From assembly GCA_014055525.1 (NCBI GenBank), contig WIAH01000005.1, positions 124,001-188,000 of the forward strand: a stretch of 64,000 nucleotides of DNA, written 5' to 3'. The notes below the pieces were generated by a model. It was not told the origin of the DNA. It saw only the letters and a list, made by a program, of their open reading frames with translations, and did no database searches. Each line of letters starts with the position of its first letter. Within the stretch, counting starts at the first letter, position 1. The stretch comes from Nitrospira sp. CR1.3 (lineage in GTDB: Bacteria > Nitrospirota > Nitrospiria > Nitrospirales > Nitrospiraceae). The translations under genes were made by a program, and so were the position numbers. Positions 18,147 to 60,307 of the stretch are shown one piece after another.

Positions 18147-18157
18147 GTGCCTCAGAC

Positions 18158-18221
18158 GGTTCTAGGTTCTCCGTGCTGCGTTCGAAGTTATCCGAACACG
18201 GAGAACCCAGAACTTAGAACC
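18158..18221. repeat. Strong intergenic hairpin
   Basis: Arms GGTTCTAGGTTCTCCGTG and CACGGAGAACCcagaactt followed by AGAACC form a long near-perfect inverted repeat. The loop itself contains a TTCG/CGAA pairing. It lies between two minus-strand genes, downstream of the PhzF gene's neighbour start. It may end transcription or be a dispersed repeat. Confidence 0.6.
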
Positions 18222-18225
18222 GACG

Positions 18226-19961: not shown

Positions 19962-20038
19962 AAGGCTCAAGGTTGAGGTTGAGGTCGAGCGCGGAAAAGC
20001 CCCAAAACTGACTCAATCTCAGCCTTAACCTCAACCTT
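19962..20038. repeat. AAGGTTGAGG-type inverted repeat, copy 2
   Basis: The left arm includes aaggttgaggttgaggtcga and the right arm includes cagccttaacctcaacctt. It fills the gap between two convergent genes and could serve as a two-way terminator. It is the same family as 12739-12806 and 21567-21596. Confidence 0.65.
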
Positions 20039-20042
20039 GTTA

Positions 20043-23551: not shown

Positions 23552-23560
23552 TTCTTACCT

Positions 23561-23652
23561 GGGGACTGTCGCCCTTCCGATTGGCGACTGTCCCAGTTCT
23601 AAAAATCTTTTTTAACCGGGACAGCACCGGGCAAGGCCCGGAGCCAGTCCCC
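23561..23652. repeat. Intergenic inverted repeats with GGGGACTGTC ends
   Basis: GGGGACTGTCGCC (23561-23573) pairs with GGCGACTGTCCC-type sequence just after it. A second hairpin, GGGACAGCACCGGGC with GCCCGGAGCCAGTCCC, follows to 23652. The hairpins lie between the two B12-type radical SAM genes and may attenuate read-through or represent a dispersed palindromic repeat. Confidence 0.6.
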
Positions 23653-23662
23653 TACCAGTCCC

Positions 23663-25561
23663 CTACATTTTCCCCGCCAGCGTCGGCGTGATGCCAGCAA
23701 TTTTAGCGGCACTGTATTGAAGGTCGTTCAGTTTTTTGAGCCCGAACCGGCAGATATATAGGAAAATATATTCACGGATGTACAGGCGCAGGTCCCAGCC
23801 CGAATAGTGGTTCCGTTCGAATTCCTGGAACACCCGCTCCGCCTCCTCGATGCTCATCCCATTGGTCACGGTGAAATAGTAGTCCAGCGCCAGGTCCCAC
23901 TCGGGGTTCTTGTAGGCCGTCACGCCCCAGCGCTCCGGATGCTTGGCCACGGGATTGTGTCGGCCGAGATCGAAGGTGCCGAAGCCGAGGGAATGGACAT
24001 AGTCCTTGTTCTGCTCCAGGAACTGCACAGATTGCCAGGCTTCCTCTTTCGTCTCACCGGGGAAGCCGAAGAAGCCCATGCAATGGTTCCAGATGCCGGC
24101 GTCGGCCGTCAGCTTGAGATGCTTTGTCATGATCTCCGTCGTCGTCGCCTTATCCATCAGTTGCAGCACACGCTCGACGCCGGACTCGTAGCCGAAGTGG
24201 AGATAGCGGCAACCGGAGTTCTTCGCATCTTCCCAGACTGCGTCTTCCAGCAGGCTCTTCTCGAACCGCATGTGCGTCGTCCAGAAGATGTCCATCTTGC
24301 TTTCAACCAAGCCTCGCGCCAGCTTGCGGAAGAGCGCCGGAGGATAGGATTCGTCGGTGAAGTGGAAATGTCGGACGCCGTACTTGTCGCGCAGATATTT
24401 GATGTCCGCCAGCACGTCCTGGATCTTCTTCGACCGGTAGCCGGCCGTATAGCCCTCGCCATGGTCGCAGAACTCGCAGCGGCCCCAGTAGCAGCCGCGA
24501 GTCGCCAGGTACGGGAGCACGTTCGTCGGCACGAAATACTTCGAGAGCGGCAGGCCGTCGAAGTCCGGGGGCGGCAGCTCCGCCATGTCCTCGGCATAGC
24601 TCAAGGGCGACTCATGGACGCCCTTGGCATCCTTATAAATGGTGTTGGGCACGCCACTGAGGTCCCGCTTGGCCCCCACCGCCTCGACCAGCTGCAAGAA
24701 AGCCGTCTCCCCTTCGTAGACCACGGCACTGTCGAAGAATTGAAACAGCGGCGATTGGGACAGCACATCGCGCAGCCTGGTCACCGTGTTGCCGCCGATC
24801 GTGACGTGGATGTGGGGAAACTGCTGCTTGATGAGGGCGCAGAAGGTCATGGAGGAGAAGATCTGCTGCTGGAGCACGATCGAGATGCCGACCACGTCGG
24901 GTTTCTCCGCTTCGAGCACCGGCTTCACGATCTGATCGAACACGTCGCGGTAGACGTTGACCTGCTCGTCGTTCACAGCGTCGATCACGTCGTTCGACGC
25001 ATAGACCTTGTAGGACAGGTCGGTCTCCATCGGCGGCATGCAAATGCGGGCAGGCGCATAGACCAGCGAAATGGTCTGCGTGACTTCGCGGAAGACTTGA
25101 ATGGCCCACTCTAACCGGTCGATATCGTAGAAGGTTTCTCCGCGGACGATTGCCTTCGCCTTCTCCGCCTTCTTGATCAGCTCGTCAATGCGCTGGCGAG
25201 TCACATCGCAGAGCGCCAGCTGAACATCCATCTCATAGTCGGTCAGGTCGCGCTTGTTGGAGAGCTTGCGGAGACGGTCGAGCTGCTGTGGGACCTTGCG
25301 CAGGACTTTCTTCAAGAAATCCTCGCTGAAGTACCAGTCCCACATCTCGAGGTTGACGTCTTTCTGGATGACGGTGTGGCCGGCTTTGCGGAGGACAGAG
25401 GTGAGGGAAGGAAGGCTGAGATAGGGTTCGGAGGGGAACCAGTCGGGCGGGAAGATGAGCATGACCTTCATCTTCCGGCCGCTGGACTCGAATGAGGCTT
25501 TTCGATGCAGCTGGATCAACTCATCGGAGGCCCGTTGACCCTTGGAATACTCGATCCGCAT
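23663..25561 (-). CDS. B12-binding-domain radical SAM protein (paralogue 2)
   Basis: This 632-residue paralogue of the gene immediately downstream shares the same plan: KVMLIFPPDWFPSEPYLSLP, QKDVNLEMWDW, VGISIVLQQQIF, the radical SAM motif CYWGRCEFCDHG near residue 355, FTDESYPPALF and HFGYESGVERVL. The ATG at 25561 gives MRIEYSKGQR and is preceded by GGGGAGGA; a longer frame to 25759 starts in Pro-rich, unlikely sequence. The pair probably arose by tandem duplication and may act on the same or successive substrates. Confidence 0.87.
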   Translation of the reverse strand: MRIEYSKGQRASDELIQLHRKASFESSGRKMKVMLIFPPDWFPSEPYLSLPSLTSVLRKAGHTVIQKDVNLEMWDWYFSEDFLKKVLRKVPQQLDRLRKLSNKRDLTDYEMDVQLALCDVTRQRIDELIKKAEKAKAIVRGETFYDIDRLEWAIQVFREVTQTISLVYAPARICMPPMETDLSYKVYASNDVIDAVNDEQVNVYRDVFDQIVKPVLEAEKPDVVGISIVLQQQIFSSMTFCALIKQQFPHIHVTIGGNTVTRLRDVLSQSPLFQFFDSAVVYEGETAFLQLVEAVGAKRDLSGVPNTIYKDAKGVHESPLSYAEDMAELPPPDFDGLPLSKYFVPTNVLPYLATRGCYWGRCEFCDHGEGYTAGYRSKKIQDVLADIKYLRDKYGVRHFHFTDESYPPALFRKLARGLVESKMDIFWTTHMRFEKSLLEDAVWEDAKNSGCRYLHFGYESGVERVLQLMDKATTTEIMTKHLKLTADAGIWNHCMGFFGFPGETKEEAWQSVQFLEQNKDYVHSLGFGTFDLGRHNPVAKHPERWGVTAYKNPEWDLALDYYFTVTNGMSIEEAERVFQEFERNHYSGWDLRLYIREYIFLYICRFGLKKLNDLQYSAAKIAGITPTLAGKM

Positions 25562-25774
25562 ACTGGCCTGAATCCTCCCCGGAAATTGGCCCAAACTGCT
25601 AGAAAGCCAATGGGTTAGCCCAGGAAATTGATATTGTACGGGGGGTGGAGAAGGAGATGCAAGCGGGAGGGGATGGGAAGCCCACGCTGCTTTCGCTAAG
25701 CCTGTGTCTTGTTGGCCGCCGTCGGCGTCGCGACCGCTCGGCTGCGGAACTTGTTCCATCCATGCTACGCAGAT

Positions 25775-25879
25775 GGAACTGCGAACAGTCCTCGCCGCCT
25801 ATAAAGCTGGGACGCGGTCGCCACTTGACGGCGGAAACACAAGCCACAATGGCCGCGAAAGCAGCGGGGACTCCCCTAC
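25775..25879 (+). ncRNA. Tandem structured element, unit 1 (candidate riboswitch-like RNA)
   Basis: Starts GGAACTGCGAACAG, in which ACTG/CAGT closes a CGAA loop. It continues through CTGGGACGCGG, GGAAACACAAGCCACAATGG and CCGCGAAAGC, ending GGGGACTCCCC. The same ordered blocks recur in unit 2, 143 bp downstream. A-rich unpaired stretches suggest the + strand is the RNA strand. The GAAA-loop/GGACGC features faintly recall GEMM-type c-di-GMP riboswitches, but I cannot confirm the class. Confidence 0.4.
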
Positions 25880-25917
25880 TGGGACGGTGGAGTGAAAGGA
25901 GTAGGCAAAGCTTGAAT

Positions 25918-26024
25918 GGAACTGCGGACAGCGCCGCGACCTGCGAAACGCAGGACGCTTCAGCTCGACACCAGGAGAAACGCAAGCCCCAAAGCCGCGA
26001 AGGCTGCCAGGTCTCCCCTCCCCG
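25918..26024 (+). ncRNA. Tandem structured element, unit 2 (candidate riboswitch-like RNA)
   Basis: Starts GGAACTGCGGACAG. It contains a perfect CCTGCG-AAA-CGCAGG hairpin followed by GACGC, then GGAGAAACGCAAGCCCCAAA and AGCCGCGAAGGCTG, closing with GGTCTCCCCTCCCC. GGAGA and TCTCC can pair. It aligns block by block with unit 1. The nearest downstream + strand gene is the DUF4136 lipoprotein at 26368. Confidence 0.4.
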
Positions 26025-26246
26025 TACATTCAAGAAGGAAAGGAGAAAGAAGGCACTTCCGCTGCGTGCGTTCGGGCGCCCAGACGAGCGCCACCCGATC
26101 CATTTATAAAGCGTAGACAACAAGCTCGATGTCCCCCAGACAGCCAGATCGTCCTCCCACCTATTTTCCCAAGATTCCACCTAAGCATATTTGACTTCCA
26201 TAATTAACAGGATGCGGGGAGACGCACATTTCAAGGGATTAACATC

Positions 26247-26284
26247 TATGTTCAGCTCACTCGAATATGTTCAGCTCACTCGAA
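26247..26284. repeat. Perfect 19-bp tandem duplication
   Basis: tatgttcagctcactcgaa occurs twice in direct succession (26247-26265 and 26266-26284), about 85 bp before the DUF4136 gene start. It could be a duplicated operator or simple slippage. Confidence 0.8.
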
Positions 26285-26367
26285 CTGCTGGTTTCCAGAA
26301 GTGACTTGGTATATGTTCTGAGCCTGCAGTTTCTGAACAAGACTTCATAGTGGGGAGGAGACGTACG

Positions 26368-26874
26368 GTGAACATTAGATTGCTGATCCTGTGGCTGGCG
26401 CTAGGGCTCCTCGCCGCCGGAGGCTGCTCGAAGGTGAAGGCGATGTACGAGGATAAGAGGTACGAGATCAAGGTACGCACGAATTTCGACGAGTCCGTCG
26501 ACTTCTCTTCGTTTCATACCTTTGCCCATTCCGGGATGACGGACAGAGGGCGAAAGATCGCGGCCACTGACAACAAATCGCCTTTGAGGATGAGGATCAA
26601 GGAAATCGTCAACAAGCAACTCGTCGCCAAGGAACTTCGGCAAGTTGGCTTGGAAGACCGCCCGGACCTGCTGGTGGACTTATTATTCGGCATGATGGAT
26701 GCCGATAAGTATCAGGAAGCCACCTTGGTAGTAAATCTGGCTGAATCGTCGAAAAAGAAGCGGGTGTGGCAGGCCGTGATCACCGAAACGGTGGGAGAGA
26801 GCCTGGAGAAGAACTTTGAATCGGTCGACAAGGGAGTCGCCAAGGCATTCAAAGACTATCCTCCGGCCAAGTGA
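26368..26874 (+). CDS. DUF4136-type lipoprotein
   Basis: This 168-residue lipoprotein has the signal LLILWLALGLLAAGGC with a clear lipobox. The mature domain opens with YEIKVRTNFDESVDFSSFHTF, the hallmark of DUF4136. I chose the GTG at 26368 because GGGGAGGAG lies upstream; the GTG at 26350 overlaps that site. Function of the family is unknown; expected at the outer membrane. Confidence 0.82.
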   Translation: MNIRLLILWLALGLLAAGGCSKVKAMYEDKRYEIKVRTNFDESVDFSSFHTFAHSGMTDRGRKIAATDNKSPLRMRIKEIVNKQLVAKELRQVGLEDRPDLLVDLLFGMMDADKYQEATLVVNLAESSKKKRVWQAVITETVGESLEKNFESVDKGVAKAFKDYPPAK

Positions 26875-38524: not shown

Positions 38525-38548
38525 ACCATTTCCAGGCGGAGGGCAGAC
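38525..38548 (+). repeat. Directional intergenic repeat, copy 10
   Basis: ACCATTTCCAGGCGGAGGGC then AGAC, a diverged copy 36 bp after the DUF3568 lipoprotein stop. Confidence 0.65.
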
Positions 38549-38612
38549 AATGGCTCTTGAGCAAGAGCCCCTCGCTCCTCGTTAATTGCTCCCCTGTGAG
38601 TGCGAATCGCGG

Positions 38613-38743
38613 GTGGAGCCCCACGGCTTGACAGCCGTGGTCCCTCTCTGGTGTCTTCGGCGGAACCCGCCGAAGCGTGTCCTCCTTCGCCAAGGCTTCG
38701 GAGGACACCCGTTGCGCGTTCCTCCACGGCTTAACAGCCGTGG
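38613..38743. repeat. Cluster of four perfect hairpins
   Basis: In order: CCACGGCT-TGAC-AGCCGTGG (38621-38640), CTTCGGCGG-AAC-CCGCCGAAG (38655-38675), GTGTCCTCC...GGAGGACAC (38677-38708) and CCACGGCT-TAAC-AGCCGTGG (38724-38743). The first, with flanks (38613-38645), is identical over 33 bp to 53984-54016. It resembles a REP/BIME-type mosaic. Confidence 0.8.
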
Positions 38744-38820
38744 CTTCCTGCGCAGGCGGGTGAACACAAATTGGCAAGCGGCATCAACGTCCTGATGCCG
38801 CACAATGACCGGCATACGGG

Positions 38821-60170: not shown

Positions 60171-60181
60171 CGATCCTCAAA

Positions 60182-60307
60182 GCGCCTGCTCAAAACGTTT
60201 TCCGGCAAGGCCGCAAGGAGCAAGGACCACGAGGCGTACGCAGTGAGGGTACGTTGAGTGATTCGAGCGACTGAGAACGCAGCCGGAGAGCGTTTTCAGC
60301 AGGCGTT
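60182..60307. repeat. Large imperfect palindrome, copy B
   Basis: Outer arms GCGCCTGCTCAAAACG and CGTTTTCAGCAGGCG with TTCCGGC/GCCGGA inside. The core CAAGGCCGCAAGGAGCAAGG and GGTACGTTGAGTGATTCGAG align with the copy at 15977-16098. Lies between two minus-strand genes. Confidence 0.75.

Follow-up and report, generated by a model that had tools for sequence, protein, structure and literature searches.

The closest described counterparts of the element analyzed here are the ERIC/IRU (RU-1) repeats of enterobacteria and the REP/BIME sequences associated with RAYT. ERIC/IRU repeats are dispersed imperfect palindromes of 100 to 200 bp that are intergenic and often intra-operonic; they form a stable stem-loop in the transcript, and their effect on the stability of the upstream transcript depends on orientation (PMC2229807). 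REPs are palindromic and extragenic, are often placed no more than 15 nt downstream of a stop codon (PMC12306157), and, according to the passage of that source citing Liang et al. (2015), reduce translation when they stand <16 nt from the stop codon. Other small interspersed structured repeats, each of one lineage, include CIR of Caulobacter, NEMIS/Correia of Neisseria, and RUP/BOX of pneumococci. For Nitrospira, one REP survey covers N. moscoviensis by REP counts only, and our search of the literature returned no description of a repeat such as the one reported below.

We describe a repeat family, not listed before, that is scattered through Nitrospira genomes (family 1). The feature under study, which almost certainly belongs to this dispersed and conserved family of hairpin repeats, lies in a window of 64,000 nucleotides from Nitrospira sp. 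CR1.3 (positions 124,001 to 188,000 of contig WIAH01000005.1), and coordinates below are those of the window unless a locus or contig is named. Family 1 resembles ERIC/IRU as a dispersed, imperfect, intergenic and often intra-operonic palindrome, a likeness in placement only; unlike ERIC/IRU, it measures ~200 nt rather than 127 bp, has zero sequence in common with those repeats, shows neither a conserved terminal repeat nor 5'-TA ends, is Y-shaped, and is all but restricted to the Nitrospira family. With REP/BIME it shares a palindromic form and an extragenic position close behind stop codons, but its ~200 nt contrast with 20 to 40 bp, and no constant GTAG/CGTC foot is evident by eye. None of the ten RAYT loci examined contains a family 1 copy; a REP/RAYT assignment is not supported by length, by the by-eye lack of a common foot tetranucleotide, or by these ten loci. 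A terminal repeat or TA target of the kind known from CIR, NEMIS/Correia, and RUP/BOX is not established for family 1, which was compared with those repeats by description, not by sequence.

A sequence-only reading of the window had proposed a structured, RNA-like element of unknown class at 25775 to 26024, built of two tandem units. The sequence blocks that it listed are all there: GGAACTGCGAACAG (25776) and GGAACTGCGGACAG (25919) stand 143 bp apart, and the ordered blocks GGACGC, AAACRCAAGCC, CCGCGAA, and CTCCCC are present, as is the CCTGCG-AAA-CGCAGG hairpin. The right boundary (~26024) was about correct, and the left one fell ~100 nt short, leaving the left arm (~25677 to 25760) outside. 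The locus is made up of the following features, the hairpin feet being estimated, with a precision of about 10 nt, from a profile of homologous copies, which both units match far beyond chance:

23663 to 25561, minus strand: B12-binding radical SAM gene, start at MRIEYSKG; a constant neighbor of the element in relatives.
25677 to 25874, plus strand: complete long-hairpin repeat (family 1, type A); profile match at 25684 to 25868 with E 7.5e-45, fold z of −6.55 as RNA and −6.39 as DNA, covariation over 33 copies.
25675 to 25737, plus strand: left arm of the complete hairpin, outside the interval first proposed; inverted match to 25814 to 25876 at 76%.
25753 to 25779, plus strand: central hairpin, GTTCCATC-loop-GATGGAAC; its helix (number 8 of A4) is conserved more than any other.
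25775 to 25876, plus strand: unit 1, the right arm of the complete hairpin.
25905 to 26010, plus strand: unit 2, right-half remnant of a second family 1 copy; profile positions 83 to 190 matched with E 3e-15.
26057 to 26097, plus strand: right half left over from a copy of family 3, a dispersed group of hairpins unrelated to family 1; E 4e-5, with full copies present in relatives.
26368 to 26874, plus strand: DUF4136 lipoprotein gene, not a conserved neighbor at orthologous loci.

The complete repeat measures ~200 nt from foot to foot and folds into a Y whose elements are a long stem with bulges, the central hairpin, and a short hairpin at the side; the z values listed above are those of 25670 to 25885, and 0 of 200 shuffles equaled them. 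Unit 1 is the right arm of this hairpin, because adding ~100 nt upstream yields the strong fold together with the inverted match at 25675 to 25737, which was also seen in a search of the genome against itself. Unit 2 is oriented like the complete copy and lacks a left arm; it is a right-half remnant, because only one stretch of the profile is matched. When folded separately, the two units do no better than shuffles (z of −1.26 and −0.08, plus strand), and since the real fold needs the left arm and unit 2 lacks its own, the proposal of two tandem units gives way to one full element and one half copy. In the central-hairpin helix, 93% of cells are paired and eight of nine pairs show changes on both sides.

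The window copy itself is not placed after a stop codon. The start of the radical-SAM gene lies beside the element at the orthologous loci of six genomes (G001, G002, G006, G021, G183, and G248), in which the gene on the other side varies, and the radical-SAM locus of G003 carries family 3 and half copies. The intergenic region 25561 to 26368 and its orthologous loci (L043, L044, L045, L049, L050, L089, and L090) contain several families of hairpins, joined in some of the genomes by toxin-antitoxin-type genes, so that this side of the radical-SAM gene looks like an accumulation site for hairpins. At such a site, where hairpins and toxin-antitoxin cargo come and go, the window copy may have no regulatory role. 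Elsewhere in the window, four other strong intergenic hairpins stand beside gene ends (60171 to 60306, 23552 to 23662, 19962 to 20042, and 18147 to 18225; z −4.6 to −5.4) and have no match to families 1 to 3, and the remaining intergenic regions are mostly free of strong hairpins. The stretch 38548 to 38767 (z −8.2) contains several short hairpins (CACGGCTTGACAGCCGTGG, GGCGGAACCCGCC) within a 2-kb region without a called gene.

Family 1 is widely distributed among the relatives of our strain. Of 246 genomes taken from the phylum, 43, including 41 from the same family, give matches to its covariance model (1 to 21 per positive genome); at E up to 0.1, the core model finds 9 matches in the strain itself, and G006 has 19 and G007 has 21. 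A DNA search of relatives returned matches in most same-family genomes, with a common core CTYGGCTGCGGAACTYGTTCC ... GGAACTTCGAACAGTCCTCGCC, and the exact core pattern, searched in GTDB, matches solely records or MAGs named Nitrospira, Nitrospirae, or Nitrospiraceae. No match was obtained among plasmids, phages, or viral contigs. The copies group by locus (14 changes versus 27.9 when shuffled) and hardly by genome (64 changes); the grouping by locus rather than by genome indicates that they are old and mostly vertically inherited. In an order-level relative (G041), 14 weak matches (E 0.008 to 0.1, including L069 and L082) cover mostly model positions 34 to 112 and perhaps represent a distinct repeat family whose core is similar.

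The placement of the copies is asymmetric. With gene starts taken from a simple custom gene caller, 49 of the 96 non-redundant copies begin, at the 5' foot, no more than 50 nt after a same-strand stop codon, 31 of these within 15 nt, as opposed to 3 copies in which the 3' foot faces an opposite-strand stop; among 20 further copies from two genomes, the corresponding counts are 9 and 0. About ten copies are antisense to both neighbors, all of them >50 nt from the gene at their 5' foot. Intra-operonic copies are numerous, standing 41 to 60 nt ahead of the next gene. The upstream genes identified by Pfam encode SAICAR synthetase (purC), S-adenosylhomocysteine hydrolase (ahcY), a TenA/PqqC-like protein, SecA, the SucC ATP-grasp/CoA-ligase pair, and a GATase_5 protein consistent with PurQ, and an ftsK-like gene was named by eye; family 1 hairpins separate genes of core operons, purC from purSQ and sucC from sucD.

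A gene's 3' end is a favored position beyond family 1. At the 3' end of purC, 25 genomes variously carry family 1, family 2 (GTGCTCGCAGAACGCGCAC...), family 3, other hairpins, or just a gap of 18 to 33 nt. Families 2 and 3 are dispersed as well, lie mostly after same-strand stops, and also occur beside the window's radical-SAM gene in relatives. The second family (~80 to 110 nt, GTGCTCGCAGAACGCGCAC...GTGCTCGTTCGATGCGCGCAG) is found downstream of purC in L163, L164, L166, L159, and others, and, in L029 and L032, next to the radical-SAM gene; its positions and orientation are those of the window family. Members of the third family (GTCGGCGAACAG...GCGCCCGTTCGCC..CACCCG; L110:5610-5706, L116:9973-10067, L150:2211-2307, and L149:964-1059) stand directly after stops on the gene's strand. 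Among relatives' loci, L117:689-764 matches Rfam RF00029, the catalytic domain of group II introns, with 51.9 bits.

Covariation shows that the fold is conserved. Family 1 comprises two subtypes, A and B, with a common core and a different outer half, for which RNAalifold with ribosum scoring, run on each apart, gave consensus structures of 70 and 61 pairs; default scoring of a mixed-subtype alignment gave 13 pairs only. In the alignment of 33 copies, 85.3% of the 2254 cells of the 70 pairs are paired, versus 33 to 45% when the partner strand is slid by 1 to 3 columns, and in that of 35 copies 87.5% of the 2077 cells of the 61 pairs, versus 33 to 38%; because the structures were taken from the same alignments, these percentages are biased toward them, a bias to which the excess of double changes is far less exposed. 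Changes on both sides occur in 54 of 70 and 51 of 61 pairs, respectively, and the covariation of 0.40 compares with 0.16 to 0.17 in shuffled alignments, none of 500 shuffles reaching 0.40. Conserved unpaired positions, the short side hairpin, and fixed mismatches are likewise retained across genera. The check suggested by the sequence-only reading, covariation in homologs, thus came out strongly positive, and coding potential, its alternative to structure, is unlikely, as single-base indels between orthologous copies break any shared frame.

As to strand, 79 full copies fold with a mean z of −5.2 in the sense direction and −5.7 in the opposite one. In a conserved sense RNA, G.U should be favored over A.C, and in the consensus pairs of the sense strand G.U and A.C occupy 77 and 140 cells in type A and 82 and 82 cells in type B (counts that ignore phylogeny); among single changes between related copies, A.C is at least as frequent as G.U. 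A conserved sense RNA fold is therefore not indicated, and the hairpin may act as DNA, on the other strand, or without strand preference.

Quite probably, family 1 is ERIC/REP-like rather than attC- or riboswitch-like. Family 1 also resembles integron attC sites: these too are folded, follow stop codons in gene orientation (49 versus 3 in family 1), and form same-orientation arrays with toxin-antitoxin cargo. Same-orientation copies of family 1 flank toxin-antitoxin-type genes: MazE/PIN behind secA, RelE/HTH, an HI1420-type antidote, and Fic. In G183, RelE/HTH stands between two copies of 93% identity, the identity extending from the hairpin foot to ~20 nt beyond the other foot, and at the same locus G014 has one copy and the right half of a second without cargo, a leftover as which, by analogy, the window's unit 2 is also best read. 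These arrays, and the absence of a G.U excess, which is what DNA should show, speak for a DNA-level recombination site, a single-stranded or cruciform hairpin used by a recombinase to move small toxin-antitoxin cassettes as in attC but in another family. We consider this unlikely: most copies lie behind housekeeping genes and are vertically inherited, and an associated recombinase was not found. A true attC is rejected, for family 1 is ~200 nt long, shows by eye no R'/R'' boxes (RYYYAAC ... GTTRRRY), its conserved GTT and AAC pointing inwards in the aligned copies (also by eye), and has zero matches in the IntI regions of the three genomes with IntI above the curated cut-off (G000, G183, and G017), where a pattern scan run near IntI did find canonical boxes and the IntI-adjacent attC sites are of the ordinary, short 56- to 78-bp GCCTAAC...GTTAGGC type. 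Our strain's own full-length integron integrase (L172, G000:C21:220478-221407) scores 452 bits to TIGR02249, and a canonical short attC lies ~2 kb from it (L189:2134-2191). That the hairpins are attachment sites of an integron-like, non-IntI system that recombines folded single-stranded DNA and moves toxin-antitoxin cassettes behind stops, with several unrelated hairpin families sharing sites, is a decidedly improbable extension of the same idea. Equally doubtful as the recombination site is a decayed MITE without function, whose arms would be kept complementary by templated arm-to-arm repair of a quasi-palindrome. Family 1 is indeed dispersed and palindromic, its outer stem varies completely between copies (whose divergence precludes a clean empty site), even close copies show double changes in excess, and insertion occurs at hot spots beside other hairpin families; however, arm-to-arm correction should erase the unpaired positions, side hairpin, and mismatches that persist over genera, and a common terminal sequence was not seen among the copies.

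Two further explanations concern the transcript. The sequence-only reading had favored tandem riboswitch aptamers in an RNA read toward the DUF4136 lipoprotein, and a riboswitch controlling that gene would account for the conserved, covarying fold and for the two similar blocks, with short motifs (GGACGC, AAGCC) resembling GEMM/c-di-GMP and glycine riboswitches. It is nevertheless scarcely credible. Rfam, including the GEMM and glycine models that were to be checked, returned zero matches to the window element at gathering thresholds and at E up to 10, and zero to copies at 15 other loci; unit 2 is the decayed half of a copy; relatives carry other genes on the lipoprotein side; and the plus strand has no excess of G.U over A.C. 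Unlike those riboswitches, moreover, family 1 is a dispersed repeat and not the 5' leader of one gene set, about half of its copies lying directly after the stops of many unrelated genes, and on these grounds the riboswitch class is not supported. The part of the earlier proposal that endures is a conserved structure without an Rfam class. An intrinsic transcription terminator would explain a strong hairpin after stops and is also very improbable, given that no T-run follows the hairpin, that the two terminator-like matches in 25500 to 26400 are both on the minus strand, and that many copies are intra-operonic, 41 to 60 nt before the next gene.

The window feature consists of one complete and one half copy of a ~200-nt, Y-shaped hairpin repeat. 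The reading that we prefer, and to which we give about an even chance, is that this repeat is an ERIC/REP-like palindrome that acts in cis at the 3' ends of genes. The placement and orientation of the copies, and hairpins kept over genus-level time, suggest such an action on transcripts: the copies stand mostly a few nucleotides after stops, in gene orientation, either within operons or at their ends. A hairpin of high stability in 3' or intercistronic RNA could alter ribosome release, mRNA decay, or read-through to the following gene. Against a cis effect stand the absent G.U preference, the antisense copies, and the window copy's position away from any stop. Judging from placement, an effect on expression at gene 3' ends could be the reason that the repeats are maintained, though we put this slightly below an even chance.

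A dispersed palindrome can, through its arms and leftovers, produce blocks that look like tandem riboswitches. Nitrospira hold a central place among nitrifiers and have seen little genetics, and lineage-wide, covarying hairpins of 200 nt that occupy the same 3' ends as unrelated hairpin families would be candidates for a general layer of expression control in these organisms, or for the trace of an unknown recombination system.
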